A stretch of DNA of 53,657 nt from Leadbetterella sp. GTDB taxonomy: Bacteria; Bacteroidota; Bacteroidia; Cytophagales; Spirosomataceae. Each line of letters begins with the position of its first letter. Position 1 is the stretch's first letter. Positions 1 to 6,655 of the stretch are shown here, piece by piece. The translations under genes and the position numbers were made by a program. The DNA lies in the NCBI GenBank assembly GCA_019638185.1, contig JAHBUH010000028.1:1-53657 (forward strand). Direction: 5' to 3'. Under the pieces are notes generated by a model. That model was not told where the DNA came from and ran no database searches. It saw nothing but the letters and a program-made list of their open reading frames with translations.

Positions 1-597
1 TGTGTATGAAATTAGTGGAAGAAGGGGTGTTGGACCTGGATAAACCGCTACACCAATATCTGAAAAAGCCCATTACCGAATATGAAAATTTCTCAGTACT
101 CAAAAATGATGACCGGTGGGAAAAAATCACCGCCAGGATGTGCCTTAGCCATACGACCGGTTTACCGCGGTTCCATGGTTACCACCATTGAGGATTACAC
201 CAAATTCATTGAATACGTAGTTCAGGGAAAGGGAATACATACAGAAACATTCAATGAAATGATACGGCCCCAGATAAGGATATATTCCAAAACCCAATTT
301 CCACCCATAACAGAAACCACTACCCGTGAAAATGACGATATCCGGCTGGCTTACGGGCTAGGCTGGGGCCTGATGAAAACCCCATACGGAAGAGCATTTT
401 TTAAAGAAAGTGGAGACGACGCCTGGAAGAATTACAATATAAATTTTATTGACAGGGGAATCTCTATCATTATAATGACCAATAGTGTTAACGGGAGTAT
501 GATTTTCAAAGATCTTTTGGAGCAGGTAATCGGTGATACATTTACACCGTGTAAGTGGGAGGGATATTATCCTGTAAAATATAAAACAGATAAGTAA
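1..597 (+). pseudogene. Broken serine beta-lactamase-family hydrolase (partial)
   Basis: Remnant of a class C beta-lactamase/penicillin-binding-protein-like serine hydrolase. Frame 1 (readable from about position 3) gives a family-typical segment, EEGVLDLDKPLHQYL, and the SHTTGLPRF motif, then stops at 191. A second frame continues from about 174 with MVTTIEDYTKF, LAYGLGWGL and an IIIMTNSVNGS-type C-terminus, ending at 597. In intact relatives roughly 150 residues, including the catalytic YxN motif, separate HTTGLP from the TTIEDY segment. Here they are joined directly with a frame change. An internal deletion plus frameshift explains this, so the gene cannot make a working enzyme. The N-terminus with the SxxK nucleophile lies beyond the window edge. 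It borders the AT-rich island that follows. Confidence 0.8.
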
Positions 598-652
598 TAT
601 TTTGTTAATTTTTGACCATAAAAAACTTACTATTAATAACTTACACCCAAAA

Positions 653-689
653 AATAACAGACCATTCCGAGGATATCCTCGGAATGGTC
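653..689. repeat. Palindrome copy 1 (upstream of dinD)
   Basis: A perfect 30-bp palindrome at 660-689. Its half-site is GACCATTCCGAGGAT, followed by its exact reverse complement, centred on GATATC. The eight bases just left of the symmetric part (AATAACAG, 653-660) are also present left of the copy inside dinD, so more than the palindrome is shared. It lies about 175 bp before the dinD start. No T-run follows it on either strand, so it does not look like an intrinsic terminator. Confidence 0.9.
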
Positions 690-863
690 CCGGGCCTCAC
701 AAACCGGCCATTTCAAGGGTATCTCCGGAAGAATAAACCTATTCAAAAATGACCATTCAAGCCTCACTTATAGAATAATTCAACTCTTTTTGATATAGCT
801 CCAAAATTATTCCCTACATTTACCCGGCATTTTCACCAAACTTTTCACTTAAATATATGGATT

Positions 864-1694
864 ATGACACACAATACCGTATTCGAGCAAATCCGTAAGA
901 CGGATAAAAAGGGCAACGAATTCTGGAGTGCCCGTGATTTAGCCAAAGCACTTGAATATTCCGAATACCGGCATTTCTTACCGGTAATTGACAGAGCCAA
1001 AGAAGCGTGTACAAACAGTGGTCAACGAATAACAGACCATTTCGAGGATATCCTCGAAATGGTTATCATCGGTTCAGGTGCCCGAAGGAAAACAGAAAGC
1101 GTAAAGCTTTCACGTTATGCATGTTATCTCATTGTACAAAACGCTGACCCCTCCAAAGAAGTAGTAGCTCTTGGGCAAACTTACTTTGCTGTACAAACCC
1201 GGTTACAGGAGATCCGCCAGATGGACGAGTATAACCGGCTAAGCACAGAAGATGAAAAACGACTTTTTCTACGTGATGAACTATCCAAGCATAATATTCA
1301 ATTGGCCGCTGCTGCCAAAGATGCAGGCGTGACAGAGCCCCTTGACTATGCCATTTTTCAGAATCATGGTTACATGGGCTTATATGGAGGCCTTGACGCT
1401 AAAGGAATTCACGAACGGAAAGGATTAAAAAAGAGCCAGCAAATACTGGATCACATGGGAAGTACCGAATTGGCTGCCAACCTTTTCCGTGCTACCCAAA
1501 CAGAAGAAAAACTCCGCAGGGAAAATATAAAAGGAAAACAAAAAGCCAATGACACCCATCTTGAAGTAGGTAAAAAAGTCCGTAAAACCATAGCAGAACT
1601 GGAAGGTACCATGCCGGAAGATTTACCGGTGGCTGATAGTATTAAGAAAATTAGTATGAGTAAGCAAGCCTGGGTGTCAGAAAAGAAAAAATAG
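864..1694 (+). CDS. dinD: DNA damage-inducible protein D (DinD homologue)
   Basis: A 276-residue protein that follows E. coli DinD (about 274 residues) almost end to end. Matching segments include FWSARDLAKALEYSEYRHF, AKEACTNSGQ, LSRYACYLIVQNADPSKEV, QTYFAVQTR, QNHGYMGLYGGLDAKGIHER, DHMGSTELAANLFRATQTEE and a KVRKTIAELEGTMPEDLP tail. The N-terminal part is Bro-N-like. In E. coli the gene is SOS-induced and the protein has been reported, from memory, to restrain RecA. Residues 58-67 (DHFEDILEMV) are encoded by a perfect 28-bp palindrome that recurs on both sides of the gene. The start at 864 gives the family length. A TACATTTA sequence about 50 bp upstream resembles TAnnTTTG with one mismatch. 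Base composition is AT-rich, like the rest of the island. Confidence 0.93.
   Translation: MTHNTVFEQIRKTDKKGNEFWSARDLAKALEYSEYRHFLPVIDRAKEACTNSGQRITDHFEDILEMVIIGSGARRKTESVKLSRYACYLIVQNADPSKEVVALGQTYFAVQTRLQEIRQMDEYNRLSTEDEKRLFLRDELSKHNIQLAAAAKDAGVTEPLDYAIFQNHGYMGLYGGLDAKGIHERKGLKKSQQILDHMGSTELAANLFRATQTEEKLRRENIKGKQKANDTHLEVGKKVRKTIAELEGTMPEDLPVADSIKKISMSKQAWVSEKKK
1028..1063. repeat. Palindrome copy 2 (inside dinD)
   Basis: A perfect 28-bp palindrome at 1036-1063 with half-site ACCATTTCGAGGAT, preceded by the shared AATAACAG (1028-1035). It encodes dinD residues 58-67, which are conserved in E. coli DinD (DHFEEILDMV by memory). The symmetric base pair that is C/G in copy 1 is T/A here on both arms, so symmetry is kept. 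Confidence 0.9.
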
Positions 1695-1750
1695 CGAGAC
1701 TCATGTATTTATTAAGTTTTTGATGCCTTAAAAGCAGATTTGAAGCACCT

Positions 1751-1780
1751 GACCATTCCGAGGATATCCTCGAAATGGTC
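1751..1780. repeat. Palindrome copy 3 (between dinD and mazG-like gene)
   Basis: A 30-bp near-palindrome. Its left arm is identical to copy 1 (GACCATTCCGAGGAT). Its right arm matches the copy 2 type (ATCCTCGAAATGGTC), leaving one mismatched pair. It sits 57 bp after the dinD stop and about 147 bp before the mazG-like start, roughly the same spacing as copy 1 from dinD. No T-tract follows. Confidence 0.88.
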
Positions 1781-1866
1781 ACCCACTTTAATCACACTAA
1801 TAACCGGACCAGAGGCCAATAACTTCCTGGAATATCAGACAATACAAATGAATTTGTGTATTTTTA

Positions 1867-1874
1867 TACCTTTG
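1867..1874 (+). promoter_or_regulatory. Putative Bacteroidota -7 element for the mazG-like operon
   Basis: TACCTTTG matches the TAnnTTTG consensus and lies 53 bp before the mazG-like start. No well-spaced -33 TTG was found, so this rests on the -7 element alone. Confidence 0.4.
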
Positions 1875-1926
1875 AAGTGCAGCTAAGCCATAGCCACGCT
1901 ATTCAAATCTATAAAGCTATACAGAA

Positions 1927-2256
1927 ATGGAAAATTTTGACTCCCTCATATCGGAAATTGTCAGGTTCAGAGATGCAAGAGATTGGGAACAGTTTCATAA
2001 CTCCAAAGATTTAGCCATCGCGTTATCACTGGAGGCTTCCGAGCTGTTAGAGTTATTCCTCTGGAAACAGAATGAAGAATTTAATACTGATAAGTTGAAA
2101 GAAGAACTGGCAGATGTATTGATGTATGCTTTGTTATTGGCCAATAAACACCAGCTTGATGTCAGTCAGATTATCCGGGATAAGATTAAAAGGAATTCTG
2201 AAAAATACCCGGTAAATAAAGCTAAAGGCACAGCAAAGAAATACGATGAATTATAA
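1927..2256 (+). CDS. MazG-like nucleotide pyrophosphohydrolase
   Basis: A 109-residue all-alpha NTP-pyrophosphatase of the MazG/RS21-C6 superfamily. Members hydrolyse nucleoside triphosphates to monophosphate and pyrophosphate with Mg2+. The metal-binding signature is visible as E36-x2-E39 (in SLEASELLE) and E60-x2-D63 (in KEELADVLMY). The C-terminal segment with NSEKYPV is typical of the short single-domain forms. Its stop codon overlaps the start of the next gene by 11 bp, so the two are probably translationally coupled. In this island it may clean or deplete nucleotides in support of the nuclease-ATPase downstream, which is inference. Confidence 0.88.
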   Translation: MENFDSLISEIVRFRDARDWEQFHNSKDLAIALSLEASELLELFLWKQNEEFNTDKLKEELADVLMYALLLANKHQLDVSQIIRDKIKRNSEKYPVNKAKGTAKKYDEL

Positions 2257-4447
2257 GAAATCAGCCATGAATTTTAATATTCATCAATATCCTGTTGACC
2301 GTGCATTAGAGCCTACTCTGATCGAGCACCATCGTGAATATTTAAATTGGCCACTTATTTATTTTTTAGAGGGTGAAGGAAAAGAGAATAGAGAAGCGTA
2401 TGTGGGTGAAACAACAGATGTCTTAACCCGGTTAAAAACACATTCAAAATCAGAAAAGAAGCAAAATCTAAGTTTTGTCAGCCTTATACTAAGTGATTTA
2501 TTGAATAAGTCAGCCGCATTGGATATTGAGTCCAACCTGATCCGGTATATTGCAGCAGACGGTCAGTATGTGTTACAAAATGGTAATTTAGGTATAGCAG
2601 ACCACCAGTACTATCAGCAAAAGGAGGTTTATCAGACCTTATTCAGAGATATTTGGGGAGAATTACGAAGCATGGGAATTGCCAGGTATTCGCTCGAGCA
2701 TATTAATAATTCGAATGTATTCAAATATTCACCATATAAATCTTTGTCTAAAGAACAGGTTAAGGGTTTAAAGATTATTCTAAACTGTTTGTTGGATGAA
2801 AATGCAAAAGTAAGCCTTATTGAAGGAGGGGCGGGAACCGGAAAGTCCATCTTAGCTATTTTCCTCTTTAAGCTTTTAAAAACAGATCTCCATGATTTTA
2901 ACCATTTGGATTTTGATGAGGATGACCAGGAGCTGTTTTCTCTTTTAGAGAAGGTAAAGAAGAAATATGGTGATTTGAATATGGCATTGGTTATTCCTAT
3001 GGCTTCATTCCGGAAAACTATTTCAAGTGTATTCAAAAATATTAAAGGCTTATCCCATAAAATGGTGATTGGCCCTTCCGAAATGGTAAAGCAGGAATAT
3101 GATTTACTGATTATAGATGAAGGGCACCGACTACGAAGAAGAGTAAACTTAGGCTCATATTTTGGTACGTTTGACCAAAATACCGAAATTTTAGGCCTGG
3201 ATAAAAAGACATCGTCTGAATTGGATTGGGTTCAGATTCAAAGTAAAAAGTCAATCATTTTCTACGATGAGCTTCAATCCATTAAACCCTCTGATGTTTC
3301 CGGTGAGAGCTTTTATGAGTTGAAAAAACGGCTTACTACAAGGAAAGAAAAGCTCACGGTACAATTACGCATAAAAGGTGGGAATGAATATGTAAAACTG
3401 GTACATCAACTATTTGACGACAGTAAACAGCATAAATCCCAAATTAAAGATACCAGCCTCTATGATTTCAAATTATTTGATAACCTGGACGATATGGTCG
3501 AACAAATCCGTATCAAAGACCAACAAAAGGGTTTATCAAGAATAGTAGCCGGTTTTGCCTGGGAGTGGATTTCCAAAAAGAACAAATTATTGTTCGATAT
3601 TCAAATCGGGGATACCCTGTTAAAATGGAATAGCACAGAGAAAGATTGGATCAACTCTAAAAATGCCATAAAAGAAGTAGGCTGTATACATACCACTCAG
3701 GGCTATGATTTAAACTATACCGGCGTAATTATTGGCCCCGAATTAGATTATGATTTTACTACTAATCAATTTGTAGTTTATAGAGAGAGGTATAAAGATA
3801 AAAACGGCAAAAACTCAATTAAAAACCTCCGGGTACTTTTAGATTATATCCTTAATATTTACAGAACTTTATTTCTACGAGGCATGGAAGGAACATACGT
3901 TTATGTATGTAATCCTAACCTGAGAAAGTATCTCGCTCAGTTCATTCCCGCAAATGCCCCTAACGAAGAGCATAAATCCACTTACACCATCGTCCATAAG
4001 CCTAATGAATTTACAGTGCCTTATTATGATCTGGAAATAGCAGCAGGAAGTTTTTCAGATCAACAATCCGTAGAAAATATAACATATATTGAACTTCCTG
4101 ACTTAAGGCAGAATGAAGACCATTTTGTGTGCAGAGTAGTAGGAGAGTCGATGAACAAAATAATCCCGAACGGTAGCTTATGTTTGTTCAAAAAATATAC
4201 CGGCGGAAGCCGGAATGGACTTATAACTTTAGTAGAAGGAAGCGAAATACACGATACCGACTCCGGCGCAAATTATACCATAAAGGAATATTCAAGCAAA
4301 AAGATCACCGACGAGGAAGGCTGGCATCACGAAGAAATAATTCTGAAGCCCTTATCTACAGATCCCTATAATTCTATTGTTTTGAAAGGTGGAGAAATTA
4401 TGAATTTTCAGGTGATTGGGATTTTTGTTAGGGTGTTGGGAGAATAG
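2246..4447 (+). CDS. GIY-YIG nuclease / DUF2075 P-loop ATPase / S24 autopeptidase fusion
   Basis: A 733-residue three-part protein. Residues about 35-105 look like a GIY-YIG nuclease: IYF, AYVGET, R62, H66 and E95 in LDIESNLI. Residues about 165-560 form a DUF2075-type P-loop ATPase/helicase core, with Walker A GGAGTGKS (194-201), Walker B LLIIDE (D291, E292) and a late motif IHTTQGYDLNYTGVIIG. Residues about 595-733 are a LexA/UmuD-like S24 domain with an AAGSF cleavage-type site (A600-G601), nucleophile S635 in VVGESMN and general-base lysine K680 in YTIKEY. The A-to-S spacing of 35 equals that of LexA (A84, S119). The start at 2246 overlaps mazG; M8 at 2267 is an alternative. No separate LexA-type DNA-binding domain is seen. 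Roles in DNA damage or phage response are inference. Confidence 0.88.
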   Translation: MNYKKSAMNFNIHQYPVDRALEPTLIEHHREYLNWPLIYFLEGEGKENREAYVGETTDVLTRLKTHSKSEKKQNLSFVSLILSDLLNKSAALDIESNLIRYIAADGQYVLQNGNLGIADHQYYQQKEVYQTLFRDIWGELRSMGIARYSLEHINNSNVFKYSPYKSLSKEQVKGLKIILNCLLDENAKVSLIEGGAGTGKSILAIFLFKLLKTDLHDFNHLDFDEDDQELFSLLEKVKKKYGDLNMALVIPMASFRKTISSVFKNIKGLSHKMVIGPSEMVKQEYDLLIIDEGHRLRRRVNLGSYFGTFDQNTEILGLDKKTSSELDWVQIQSKKSIIFYDELQSIKPSDVSGESFYELKKRLTTRKEKLTVQLRIKGGNEYVKLVHQLFDDSKQHKSQIKDTSLYDFKLFDNLDDMVEQIRIKDQQKGLSRIVAGFAWEWISKKNKLLFDIQIGDTLLKWNSTEKDWINSKNAIKEVGCIHTTQGYDLNYTGVIIGPELDYDFTTNQFVVYRERYKDKNGKNSIKNLRVLLDYILNIYRTLFLRGMEGTYVYVCNPNLRKYLAQFIPANAPNEEHKSTYTIVHKPNEFTVPYYDLEIAAGSFSDQQSVENITYIELPDLRQNEDHFVCRVVGESMNKIIPNGSLCLFKKYTGGSRNGLITLVEGSEIHDTDSGANYTIKEYSSKKITDEEGWHHEEIILKPLSTDPYNSIVLKGGEIMNFQVIGIFVRVLGE

Positions 4448-4523
4448 TAGTTAAGGTAGTGTAATGTGAACTTTGTCATCTGGATTTTTTTTAGGCACCG
4501 TCCAGTAAACAATTTTTCATTAA

Positions 4524-4784
4524 TTATCTTTTTAAACTAATTGATTTCTCCAACCTCAAAATCATCTCATCCATCTCTTTAAGCCTCTGTCCATAAAGAG
4601 TATTTTTCTCATCATAAAGCTGAGCTATATTATCAATAGGATTGAAGGTAATCGTTCCAAAATTAAGACTATTTAAAGAGCTATAATCTCCAAACGTACT
4701 CACAACAATATTTACTATCTGCTCCATATCAAAATTCTGAAACACTTCCACCGGAATTTTCAGGTTTTTATGGGTAGATGTCAC
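4524..4784 (-). pseudogene. Headless remnant of an XRE-type regulator
   Basis: An 86-codon open frame resembling the C-terminal tail of Bacteroidota XRE/helix-turn-helix regulators: IPVEVFQNFD, a central FNPID segment, then a coiled-coil-like KNTLYGQRLKEMDEMILRLEK tail. The N-terminal helix-turn-helix domain that such proteins carry is missing; upstream on this strand there is only low-complexity sequence. I read it as a truncated gene at the right edge of the AT-rich island. It could instead be a small stand-alone protein; the family assignment is from pattern memory. Confidence 0.5.
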
Positions 4785-4826
4785 CGTTTTAATAGTGTTT
4801 TTGCTTGTTGGGTTTCTGTGATAAAT

Positions 4827-4946
4827 TATGTAAAACCCGTAATCTTACATAACCCCACCCCCAAATTCTAACCCACTCCCACACAATCCTCATTCCCCAT
4901 TGCATCACCCAAGTATTTAACGGAAGTTTGTAACGGGTTTTACATA
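4827..4946. repeat. 14-bp inverted repeat bounding about 90 bp
   Basis: TATGTAAAACCCGT (4827-4840) and its exact reverse complement (4933-4946) enclose a C-rich, strand-asymmetric spacer. The right arm ends nine bases before the sensor kinase start codon. It also marks the point where base composition changes from AT-rich to the GC-richer background. It could be a minimal mobile element scar or a regulatory hairpin. Confidence 0.6.
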
Positions 4947-4954
4947 TACCGGAA

Positions 4955-6655
4955 ATGATCAGAAGGAAGTTTTTATACTTAATAGTAATAGTCTGGGGGA
5001 TCATGAGCCCGGCTGTTGCCCAGGAAATGCGTTTTGGGAATAACATCCTGTTTGATATGATGATGACGGAGAAAGACCGGATGATTACCGAACCGGTGTA
5101 TGTGCCTGTGAGCGATACCGCCGTTTACCGCATCTTTGACCGGATGAAAAAGGACGGGAGGAAAAGCTTCACTCCTAAAAGCCCCGTCATGCTTGGGATA
5201 AAGCTTAACCCGTCTCTGGTGTACTATTACGGCGGGCTCGTGCCTTCTGTCTCCAAATATTACCAGACTTTTACCATCTCTGACAGCTCTGCGGCAGAGG
5301 TGATGGCGCTGGGGGTAAACCCGGAGAATGTGGATGACTTCCACTACCGGGTAGTGGAAAACGATAGCCTGGAAGTGGTGCCGTGGTCACCCATTCCCCG
5401 GCTGGAGCAGCGTTATGGCGCCAAACACCCTTTTGGCTTTCTGGGCAGCTTTAAAGCTCCTGGCCGGCGGGTGATGGTAGAAGTGGCCTCCAAAGAGAAT
5501 TACGGCGTCCGGGAAGGCGTGATTTTCGACTGGCGGAAAAGCTTTAAGCCGGTGCTTTCACAGATCATTATCAGCACGCCTCATGATTATTTTGACCTTC
5601 GTTCCAGCCTCTTTAATAAGAACTATGCCGGCCGGTTTGATCATGACGGGATGCCGCTGGATTTCAGGTTTCCGGCAGACAGCGTACTGAGTATCACGCT
5701 TCAGTTTAAAAAGCCGGAGACCCTGGTGCATACGGTGTACCTTATTAGCCAGCAGAATAGTAAGGCGGATACTTCTCACCTGGGCTTTGTAGATCAGTAT
5801 GGTTTTTTCCGCTTAAACCGTTCCTATTTTTCCCAGCCGGGCCGGTATGAGCTGATTATCAAAAAACAGGAGAAAGTACCGGATTGGAACAGCCCGCACA
5901 TGCTGCGCCTGGCTTTTGATGTGCTCCCATCAGGTGAAACGGCCATTTGGAGAAAGGTGCTGCCTTATTCCGGGGTGCTGATCCTGCTTTTTGCGGTCTA
6001 CCTGGGGTATTCGCGGCGGAGACTGCGGACCGAACAGCGGCAGAAAAGAACGGCACAGTTACGGCTGAAGTCGCTGCGAGCGCAGCTTAACCCGCATTTT
6101 ATGTTTAATGCGCTGAGTTCTGTGCAGAACCTGATGAATAAAAACGAGCTCCTGGAGGCCAACCGCTACCTTTCCAAGTTTGCGGGCCTCACCCGAGCCG
6201 TCTTAAACACTACCGAACGGGAGATGATCAGCCTGCAGGAAGAGCTGGCCATCACCGAAGATTACCTGCAAATGGAGCAGCTTCGCTTTGGGTTTCGCTA
6301 CGTGCAGGACGTAACAGATGCCCTTAGCCCCGGCAATACCGATGTTCCGGCTATGCTGCTTCAGCCCTTTATTGAGAATGCAGTGAAGCACGGAGTAGGC
6401 GGGATGCGGGACCGGGGACTGATCCGGGTGAATGTCCGTACTGAAAAGAATAATCTCCTGCTTTCGGTCACCGATAACGGTCCCGGTTTTGATACGGCCA
6501 CTACCCGAAAAGAAGGCTCTTTCGGCTTAAAGCTGAGCGAGGAGCGGATCACAGCCCTTAACGAGGTGTATAAGAATATCGCACTGAACATCAGTTCTGT
6601 ACCCGGGCATACAGAGGTGAAGATCACTTTTTATCACTGGATAAGTTATGAGTAA
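4955..6655 (+). CDS. LytS/YehU-type sensor histidine kinase
   Basis: A 566-residue membrane histidine kinase. A signal segment (about 1-21, ending AVAQ) leads into a roughly 310-residue extracytoplasmic domain I do not recognise. A single membrane helix follows at about 338-356, then a HisKA_LytS (PF06580-type) core with phospho-acceptor H381 in LNPHFMFNALSSVQNLM. The ATP-binding region has N-box LLQPFIENAVKHGVG and a DNGPGFD G-box. It lies 128 bp before a LytTR response regulator on the same strand, so the two should form a phosphorelay pair. The signal is unknown. Confidence 0.93.
   Translation: MIRRKFLYLIVIVWGIMSPAVAQEMRFGNNILFDMMMTEKDRMITEPVYVPVSDTAVYRIFDRMKKDGRKSFTPKSPVMLGIKLNPSLVYYYGGLVPSVSKYYQTFTISDSSAAEVMALGVNPENVDDFHYRVVENDSLEVVPWSPIPRLEQRYGAKHPFGFLGSFKAPGRRVMVEVASKENYGVREGVIFDWRKSFKPVLSQIIISTPHDYFDLRSSLFNKNYAGRFDHDGMPLDFRFPADSVLSITLQFKKPETLVHTVYLISQQNSKADTSHLGFVDQYGFFRLNRSYFSQPGRYELIIKKQEKVPDWNSPHMLRLAFDVLPSGETAIWRKVLPYSGVLILLFAVYLGYSRRRLRTEQRQKRTAQLRLKSLRAQLNPHFMFNALSSVQNLMNKNELLEANRYLSKFAGLTRAVLNTTEREMISLQEELAITEDYLQMEQLRFGFRYVQDVTDALSPGNTDVPAMLLQPFIENAVKHGVGGMRDRGLIRVNVRTEKNNLLLSVTDNGPGFDTATTRKEGSFGLKLSEERITALNEVYKNIALNISSVPGHTEVKITFYHWISYE

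Follow-up and report, generated by a model that had tools for sequence, protein, structure and literature searches.

A palindrome within dinD is conserved as DNA and varies in step with DinD residues: a probable operator inside the gene of its own regulator

Introduction

Repressor sites can lie within coding sequences, as do the PurR operator inside purB and the lac operator O2 inside lacZ; in both of these cases, the regulated gene is not the regulator's own. We know of no description of an operator that is maintained across most of a large family in the gene of its own regulator, coevolves with its reader and is formed by codons that make part of the DNA-reading wing. Here, we describe a candidate of this kind, a palindrome present before, inside and after dinD, the gene of DNA damage-inducible protein D, in a 53,657-nucleotide stretch of Leadbetterella sp. 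DNA (contig JAHBUH010000028.1, hereafter called the window, at its full length). An operator inside the regulator's own gene is already known from C.Kpn2I, a protein of the Kpn2I restriction-modification (R-M) system: its site lies inside its own open reading frame (ORF), the protein, once bound there, blocks the way of elongating RNA polymerase and so creates negative feedback, and this arrangement is suggested to be possibly widespread among C.Kpn2I-like proteins (PMC6237814).

The dinD locus is like that of C.Kpn2I in that the candidate site, which DinD would bind, lies inside the regulator's own ORF. However, DinD is a Bro-N protein and not, like C.Kpn2I, a small R-M controller, and the candidate DinD site persists in most members of the family, at identities as low as 32%, and coevolves with its reader. 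The DinD of the window matches family NF008573 with 408.3 bits (cut-off 242, residues 2-269) and the Bro-N domain PF02498 with 42.2 bits (gathering score 25.6); Pfam and NCBIfam thus give Bro-N/DinD and not a C-protein with linked R-M genes. No methyltransferase was found among six locus proteins scanned with Pfam.

The role of the DinD protein is, to our knowledge, unsettled. In E. coli K-12, dinD, an SOS gene whose product belongs to the same family, NF008573, carries the palindrome at the same codons; the sequence CTGTATATAAATACAG, which we take to be LexA-box-like, is centred 54 bp before its ATG. Fusions of dinD to lacZ are used as DNA damage indicators (PMC4437046). Among the open-licence PMC titles and abstract openings listed, none reports a DNA site in or for dinD. 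The nearest fold of a DinD model is that of DdrC of Deinococcus radiodurans, a dimeric DNA-binding DNA damage protein, which differs from the picture presented below in its preference for single-stranded DNA (ssDNA) and its lack of sequence specificity (PMC5436757).

Results

The gene dinD occupies positions 864-1694 of the forward strand of the window and encodes 276 amino acids. Copy 1 of the palindrome (660-689) is a perfect 30-bp palindrome, GACCATTCCGAGGATATCCTCGGAATGGTC, that precedes a promoter-like sequence and ends 174 bp short of the dinD ATG. Copy 2 (1036-1063) is a perfect 28-bp palindrome, ACCATTTCGAGGATATCCTCGAAATGGT, in dinD codons 58-67 (1035-1064), where it encodes the first strand of a predicted beta-hairpin. 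Copy 3 (1751-1780), with one mismatched pair, lies 56 bp past the dinD stop codon and 146 bp before the ATG of a mazG-like gene; no strand is assigned to any of the copies. With pairs numbered from the outside of the palindrome, a paired change at pair 7 (T/A to C/G) distinguishes copies 1 and 2, and both carry AATAACAG on the left side; copy 3 combines the left-arm type of copy 1 with the right-arm type of copy 2. Positions, symmetry, arm types, the paired difference, the shared left sequence and the two spacings to the next ATG all agreed with the first-pass annotation of this DNA when measured again. The chance expectation of such a palindrome in the window is 0 (100 shuffles, up to 3 mismatches allowed), and across all 39 contigs of the genome (4,222,112 bases), matches with up to 3 mismatches were found at these three places only, and not as the many unlinked copies of a dispersed repeat or mobile end. 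As a separate observation, GATATC occurs 32 times in the window, with 11.8 occurrences expected.

It had been noted beforehand that copy 2 encodes DinD residues 58-67, which are shared with E. coli. This is indeed so, and the corresponding E. coli K-12 site, GACCATTTCGAGGAGATCCTCGATATGGTC, is palindromic too (12/14 pairs); the DNA palindrome itself is therefore shared, beyond the protein segment. We looked for it in two sets of homologues. The close-relative set holds the best 80 of 308 hits from a search with six patterns. Since one of these was a peptide from the site region, the pairing test was repeated on a family-search set. That search covered 395 genomes of the phylum, with matches in 85, of which 50 exceeded the cut-off; near-full-length hits were used and partial ones left out. 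Two genes are common to both sets (L098 and L099 overlap L065 and L037); L001-L004, L100, L134-L145 and L208 duplicate other places, and L214 is the same place as L174. A palindrome was scored as present when at least 10/12 outer pairs were complementary and its centre lay no more than 15 bp from the expected position. By this measure, it is present in 79/80 close relatives, in 56/63 near-full-length family-search DinDs, in 16/20 usable loci among 25 further record and viral loci, and in 9/10 DinD-type genes from a draw of Bro-N genes in 119 genomes of the class. One of the 16, L121 (MG065691.1, "Campylobacter phage A11a", a record labelled UNVERIFIED), shares 3825 bases around dinD with E. 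coli K-12 at 100% identity and, judging from this, is probably an E. coli contamination; because of the identity, it is not counted as separate evidence. It also entered the extra-copy scan, the mismatch test and the tree and, if kept by the 95% filter, is among the rows of the covariation, code-table and prediction sets.

The ten codons read GAC CAT TTC GAG GAT ATC CTC GAA ATG GTT in the window, AAC CAT CTC GTT GAA TTC AAC GAG ATG GTT in L031 and AAC CAT TTC GTG GAT TTC CAC GAA ATG GTT in L043. The pairing is in frame (codon 1 with 10, 2 with 9, etc.), so that each paired change affects the encoded residues of both arms (E61/L64, V61/N64, V61/H64), and the symmetric part spans 28 bp, from the second base of codon 58 to that of codon 67. 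Averaged over 81 genes, complementarity extends to 12.86 of the 14 pairs, versus 8.84 under a null model in which synonymous codons are drawn by usage (standard deviation 0.13, maximum 9.28 in 2000 draws), and the site is the best of 747 gene positions (0.919, the next one scoring 0.488). The 61 family-search genes above 250 profile bits give 11.89/14 versus a null of 8.51 (standard deviation 0.15). The palindrome is still found, with other arms such as CATTTTGTTGACGTCAACAAAATG, in DinDs about 32% identical to that of the window, and Neisseria and streptococcal satellite phage records retain 12/14 pairs each. As can be seen, a symmetric site is conserved here beyond coding need.

Mismatches at 91 distinct sites show which nucleic acid is under selection. 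T.G is found 33 times versus 183 under the null and A.C 18 times versus 101; the respective figures for the family-search set are 23 versus 103.5 and 15 versus 65.1. Since T.G is avoided as strongly as A.C, DNA and not RNA is selected. Synonymous positions tell the same: the third base of codon 58 is C in 62/63 sites with partner G and T in 23/25 with partner A, against an Asp codon background in which T is twice as common as C elsewhere, and Phe60 is encoded by TTC in 54/56 sites with partner G and by TTT in 16/19 with partner A.

The bases of the site covary with DinD residues. Among 94 non-redundant DinDs at least 60% identical to that of the window, C-G at pair 2 occurs with Ser71 (63/63) and T-A with Lys71 (29/29), leaving two odd sites, and the GAG..CTC arm occurs with E34/H37 (57/57). 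On a tree built by a quick method with columns 28-82 left out (118 of 123 rows; L119, L122 and L124-L126 dropped), pair 2 and residue 71 change 26 times each on the best tree and agree in all 114 rows with these states, 4 rows with other states being uncounted. Considering well-supported branches, 7/7 independent pairs agree for pair 2 and residue 71 (p 0.016), as do 8/8 for the GAG arm and His37 (p 0.008); D34/E34 as a separate determinant of GTT versus GTG is weak on the tree. Mutual-information z values over 136 non-redundant DinDs are 14.1 for residue 71 and pair 2, 13.3 for 75 and pair 5, 8.2 for 36 and pair 9, and 5.5 for 37 and pair 10; pair 11 gives 4.5 with residue 37 and 3.4 with residue 40, and pair 6 is weak. 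Equally near columns score much lower (for pair 2, residue 69 has 0.28 versus 0.94 for residue 71), and so linkage alone cannot explain the covariation.

A code table relates the inner arm to residues 34, 36, 37 and 40: GAG goes with E,R,H (57/57), GTG..CAC with E,R,N,P (10/10), GTT..AAC with D/E,R,N (34/34), CGT with R,E,N (6/6), CCT..AGG with K,E,N,K (4/4) and GCT..AGC with Q,R,N (2/2); E,R,N,P is also seen with one GTT..AAC and two mixed arms. When relatives at least 75% identical were excluded, these four residues predicted the arm (pairs 9-11) in 117/131 cases and residue 71 predicted pair 2 in 128/131, compared with at most 75 and 96 for random columns and 47 and 61 for the nearest remaining relative. 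The residues of E. coli K-12 DinD (E34/R36/H37/P40/S71) fit the code. Inspection by eye of the nine palindromic genes of the Bro-N draw gave 9/9 that fit residue 71 and 7/9 arms with a precedent in the table (not L201 and L211). In untranslated copies, including promoter copies and the two of the window, pair 2 follows the local residue 71 in 12/14.

An AlphaFold model of DinD built from 50 sequences (mean predicted local distance difference test score 84.4, predicted template modelling score 0.60) has an N-terminal domain with a helix at 35-51 and a beta-hairpin at 60-68/74-82. In this model, residues 36, 37 and 40 are placed at the start of the helix and residue 71 at the tip of the hairpin. 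The stretch for residues 34-40 (963-983, forward strand), where E34, R36, H37 and P40 covary with inner-arm pairs 9-11, begins this helix, and that for residues 71-75 (1074-1088, forward strand), where S71 and R75 covary with outer pairs 2 and 5, belongs to the tip region. We read the predicted fold as winged-helix-like, with the helix presumably turned towards the inner portion of each half-site and the wing towards its outer portion. The best fold match in the PDB is DdrC (8u0g_B, E-value 8.9e-5), the sequence-profile match to it being non-significant (E-value 0.51), and a sequence search of the PDB returned nothing significant.

Since the Thiothrix DinD gene L119 has no in-gene palindrome, an operator was expected elsewhere, and positions -700 to +1100 were scanned. 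A palindrome, ACCATTTTCCCGGTTCCGGGAAAATGGT, was found centred 47 bp before the ATG with 12/12 pairs (shuffled maxima 7-10/12). In its sister species, L178, the palindrome is centred at -41 from the ATG, and in an unrelated Bacteroidota DinD gene, L155, ATCGTTTTGCTGATATCGGCAAAACGAT is centred at -37. L155 has Q34/R36/N37 and Lys71; T-A at pair 2 of its promoter copy fits, and one half has the GCT arm precedented for QRN. The Thiothrix promoter copies fit at pair 2.

Two observations concern altered wings. A DinD from a faecal phage record (L179) has Cys in place of the near-invariant His59 and the wing MPH, and its in-gene palindrome, now ATGTTTTGTT..AACAAAACAT, is symmetric again. In DinDs with the wing MPK (L111, L148, L149 and L155), the right half-site is AAAACGAT; the left side of the L155 promoter copy is CGTTTT, and the in-gene copies retain CAT for His59, as if the His59 codon limited their left half.

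Copies outside the gene occur at other dinD loci too. They start 31 bp (L041), 11 bp (L070), and 23 and 78 bp (L158) past the stop codon, or lie 138-420 bp (L042, L034, L123) or 3.2 kb (L084) before the start. The window is thus not alone: related loci have flanking copies (L041, L042, L070, L123, L158) or promoter copies (L119, L155, L178). Paired changes keep the symmetry of non-coding copies (pair 6 in L041, pair 5 in L070, pair 7 in window copy 1 and L042). The suggestion of the first-pass annotation that the copies between genes stem from the gene or imitate it holds in essence, while the conservation of the in-gene copy as a DNA palindrome across most of the family had escaped it. E. coli K-12 differs from the window, as no second palindrome with more than 8/12 outer pairs exists within -700 to +1100 of its dinD ATG.

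The near-uniqueness of the site was examined with the GAG-type pattern only, over 37 loci, 36 of them in 35 genomes. A single match was obtained in 31 genomes, and for G395, where L034 lies, it is the external copy; two genomes gave two matches each, G396 gave three, and G399, which has a different arm type, gave none. With mostly one match per genome, there is no sign of a regulon, and the address is dinD itself. Some genomes have two dinD genes: G396 has them with two different arm types, and the L084 copy carries the arm of the second dinD of this genome (L073), not its own; G347 has the same CGT arm twice (L113 and L158). The genome of the window also contains a second dinD (L005, C38:41774-42607), 36% identical and with its own different palindrome, GACCATTTCGTTGGGTTCAACAAAATGGTC.

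Besides the window, 29 other Bro-N loci were considered, 10 of them DinD-type and 13 without a DinD-profile hit and left unscanned. None of the six scanned loci that are not DinD-type (L187, L188, L198, L200, L205, L209) has a palindrome with at least 10 outer pairs. Around the genes for RhuM, a Nostoc BRO protein and a Gordonia antirepressor (L124-L126), the best palindromes have 9-10/12 outer pairs, shuffled controls having 8-10. The Nostoc plasmid gene (L125) contains ACTTTTTGCC GGCATT GGCAAAAAGT near the homologous codons, with 10/12 outer pairs, a possible extension of the palindrome beyond DinD.

The promoter-like sequence before dinD (789-821, forward strand; TTTG, 22 bp, TACATTT) is putatively of the Bacteroidota type, judged by what we take to be the consensus. 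Following copy 3, a mazG-like gene (1927-2256, forward strand; PF12643, 67.7 bits), possibly a co-regulated unit, is overlapped by the gene of a 733-residue fusion of GIY-YIG-like, Schlafen-group-3 helicase and S24 peptidase-like parts (2246-4447, forward strand). The fusion, an unusual single ORF, scores 203.4 bits with PF09848, 24.0 with PF00717 and 21.5 with PF01541, under the cut-off of 22.6 for the latter; it has a weak ResIII helicase match (24.3 bits, cut-off 22.5) and weak matches to several PADLOC candidate models. DinD itself matches the hidden Markov model of the PADLOC candidate defence protein PDC-S13 with 390 bits, and its PADLOC "Specificity_I" match spans only positions 2-268 of a 717-position profile. 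Upstream of copy 1, two overlapping partial frames at 6-597 look like a degraded gene end, the second resembling a serine hydrolase of the beta-lactamase family at 25.7 bits, short of the cut-off of 27 bits. Elsewhere, a DEAD/DEAH helicase gene is found near dinD on L123, L178 and L182.

Discussion

The palindrome in dinD is conserved as DNA, covaries with DinD residues, is near-unique in the genomes searched and precedes the ATG in three genes that lack it inside. Because this symmetric in-gene site changes in step with residues that likely read DNA, DinD very probably binds its own gene and thereby controls itself. We give a probability of roughly 0.82 to the reading that DinD is a dimeric, sequence-specific autoregulator with the operator inside its own gene and with flanking copies as extra operators; that DinD is the binder, acts as a dimer, makes winged-helix contacts and represses itself is what we infer from sequences and a predicted fold. 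The idea that the palindrome is the self-recognised target of a DinD-type protein, put forward in the first-pass annotation together with that of an operator, is strongly supported by the residue-base covariation and by the promoter copies present where the in-gene site is lost.

The following mechanism can be proposed. A DinD homodimer with a winged-helix-like Bro-N domain would recognise the 28-bp palindrome at its own codons 58-67, the start of the recognition helix (34, 36, 37, 40) reading the inner arm at pairs 9-11 and the tip of the beta-hairpin wing (71, 75) reading the outer arm at pairs 2 and 5. Bound DinD would most likely limit its own transcription. Since the centre of the in-gene site lies about 186 bp after the ATG, the simplest effect would be a roadblock to elongation after about 0.2 kb of transcript. 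At loci with additional copies, such as copies 1 and 3 of the window, control would be exerted jointly with operators beside the gene. The promoter-like sequence would place copy 1 upstream of transcription and copy 3 precedes the mazG-like and fusion genes, which makes both of them probable auxiliary operators.

Several points weigh against this reading. Extra copies near dinD are rare (6/122 other loci, L158 having been added later, with a shuffled-arm control of 0.0004 per locus), and 12/163 genes judged fall below the presence threshold. Of these 12, three have a promoter palindrome (L119, L178, L155), one is borderline (L045, 9/12), four form one clade (L171-L174) and four are remote relatives with less than 200 profile bits (L127, L175, L176, L181). 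No DinD-like site is present in the stretches scanned for L171-L174 or for the four remote relatives, although L127 and L176 have unrelated upstream palindromes. The DinDs of L171-L174 have LHFKD-like residues and a changed wing, and this clade may no longer recognise DNA. Two of the three promoter-palindrome cases, L119 and L178, are sister Thiothrix, whose residue set K,E,R has no in-gene precedent, so that their CCC arm tests nothing; the other half of the L155 promoter copy reads GCC. A second E. coli clade keeps just 10/14 pairs, pair 6 is often mismatched, and pair 8 has no standout column and tracks general relatedness. The L034 external copy misfits its own DinD, and one L158 external copy has T-A beside Ser71. 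Selection of the code columns and the prediction test drew on overlapping data, and for this reason the untranslated copies and the later genes of the Bro-N draw are the cleaner tests. The fold match to DdrC has low template modelling scores (0.38/0.47) and a root mean square deviation of 19 Å, and DdrC prefers ssDNA without sequence specificity (PMC5436757). With respect to function, the point of this kind is that published work on DinD reportedly found inhibition of RecA in vitro, which points to another activity. DinD might also bind the in-gene palindrome for a purpose other than transcription, such as marking, copy control or partition of a carrier element, or a defence self-address. On two Thiothrix plasmids (L119, L178), dinD comes immediately after parA-parB, and on a Flammeovirgaceae plasmid (L184) it comes after a ParA gene and a hypothetical gene. 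It also occurs in streptococcal satellite phages, and the PDC-S13 match points in the same direction; however, sites at -37 to -47 from the ATG occupy the usual position of an operator, and we regard this explanation as unlikely.

The apparent T.G pairs suggested an RNA hairpin in the dinD mRNA, serving translation control, an RNase or a protein, and the message could form a 12-bp stem with a 4-nt loop around a site centre that is often asymmetric. The mismatch tests led us to reject this candidate: T.G, which RNA would pair, is depleted like A.C in both sets, and the third base of codon 58 follows its partner against a T-rich Asp background. In addition, copy 1 lies upstream of the promoter-like sequence, the palindromes of L119, L155 and L178 lie before the ATG, and positions 1-5000 of the window contain no Rfam match. 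A hairpin is thus very improbable.

We see a slim chance at best that protein packing alone accounts for the data, with residues 61, 64 and 67 covarying with 34, 37 and 71 through contacts in the fold and the palindrome arising as a by-product. Residues 60-68 and 74-82 are indeed predicted to form one beta-hairpin with 71 at its tip, but the synonymous third bases of codons 58, 60 and 64 follow the palindrome, that of codon 58 follows residue 71, untranslated copies mostly obey the same code, and palindromes stand before the ATG where the in-gene one is missing; packing as the sole cause was rejected on the synonymous sites and untranslated copies. S24-type repressors bind palindromes, and the S24-type fusion lies downstream of copy 3, so that another protein such as this one could be imagined as the binder; since the base changes track residues of DinD itself, this is scarcely to be expected. 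A dispersed or mobile palindromic repeat or, as had also been proposed, recombination ends of a dinD cassette could account for three copies around one gene and the eight more bases common to copies 1 and 2, but the chance of this is negligible and genome-wide copy counts reject it, as the genome has only these three copies, 30 of the 35 genomes searched have a GAG-type dinD and a single match to the GAG-type pattern, and the in-gene copy occupies the homologous codons even where DinD identity is as low as 32%.

Tentatively, and with somewhat less than even odds, the DinD family might consist of "self-addressed" regulators. One 30-bp stretch would then act as operator while also encoding part of the wing that reads DNA, so that the amino acid sequence of this strand would be slaved to its own binding site. 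Joint and frequent changes of address and reader would yield many mutually orthogonal specificities, by which the plasmids, satellite phages and islands carrying dinD could be sorted into immunity or incompatibility groups.

Taken together, the results point to DinD as a sequence-specific DNA-binding protein, and they name its probable site and its residue-per-base partners. Since site and reader are in the same gene, almost every sequenced dinD is a candidate protein-DNA pair, which provides more than 100 natural instances of a recognition code (136 non-redundant). Interrupting dinD with a reporter fusion may, by inference, remove its negative feedback.

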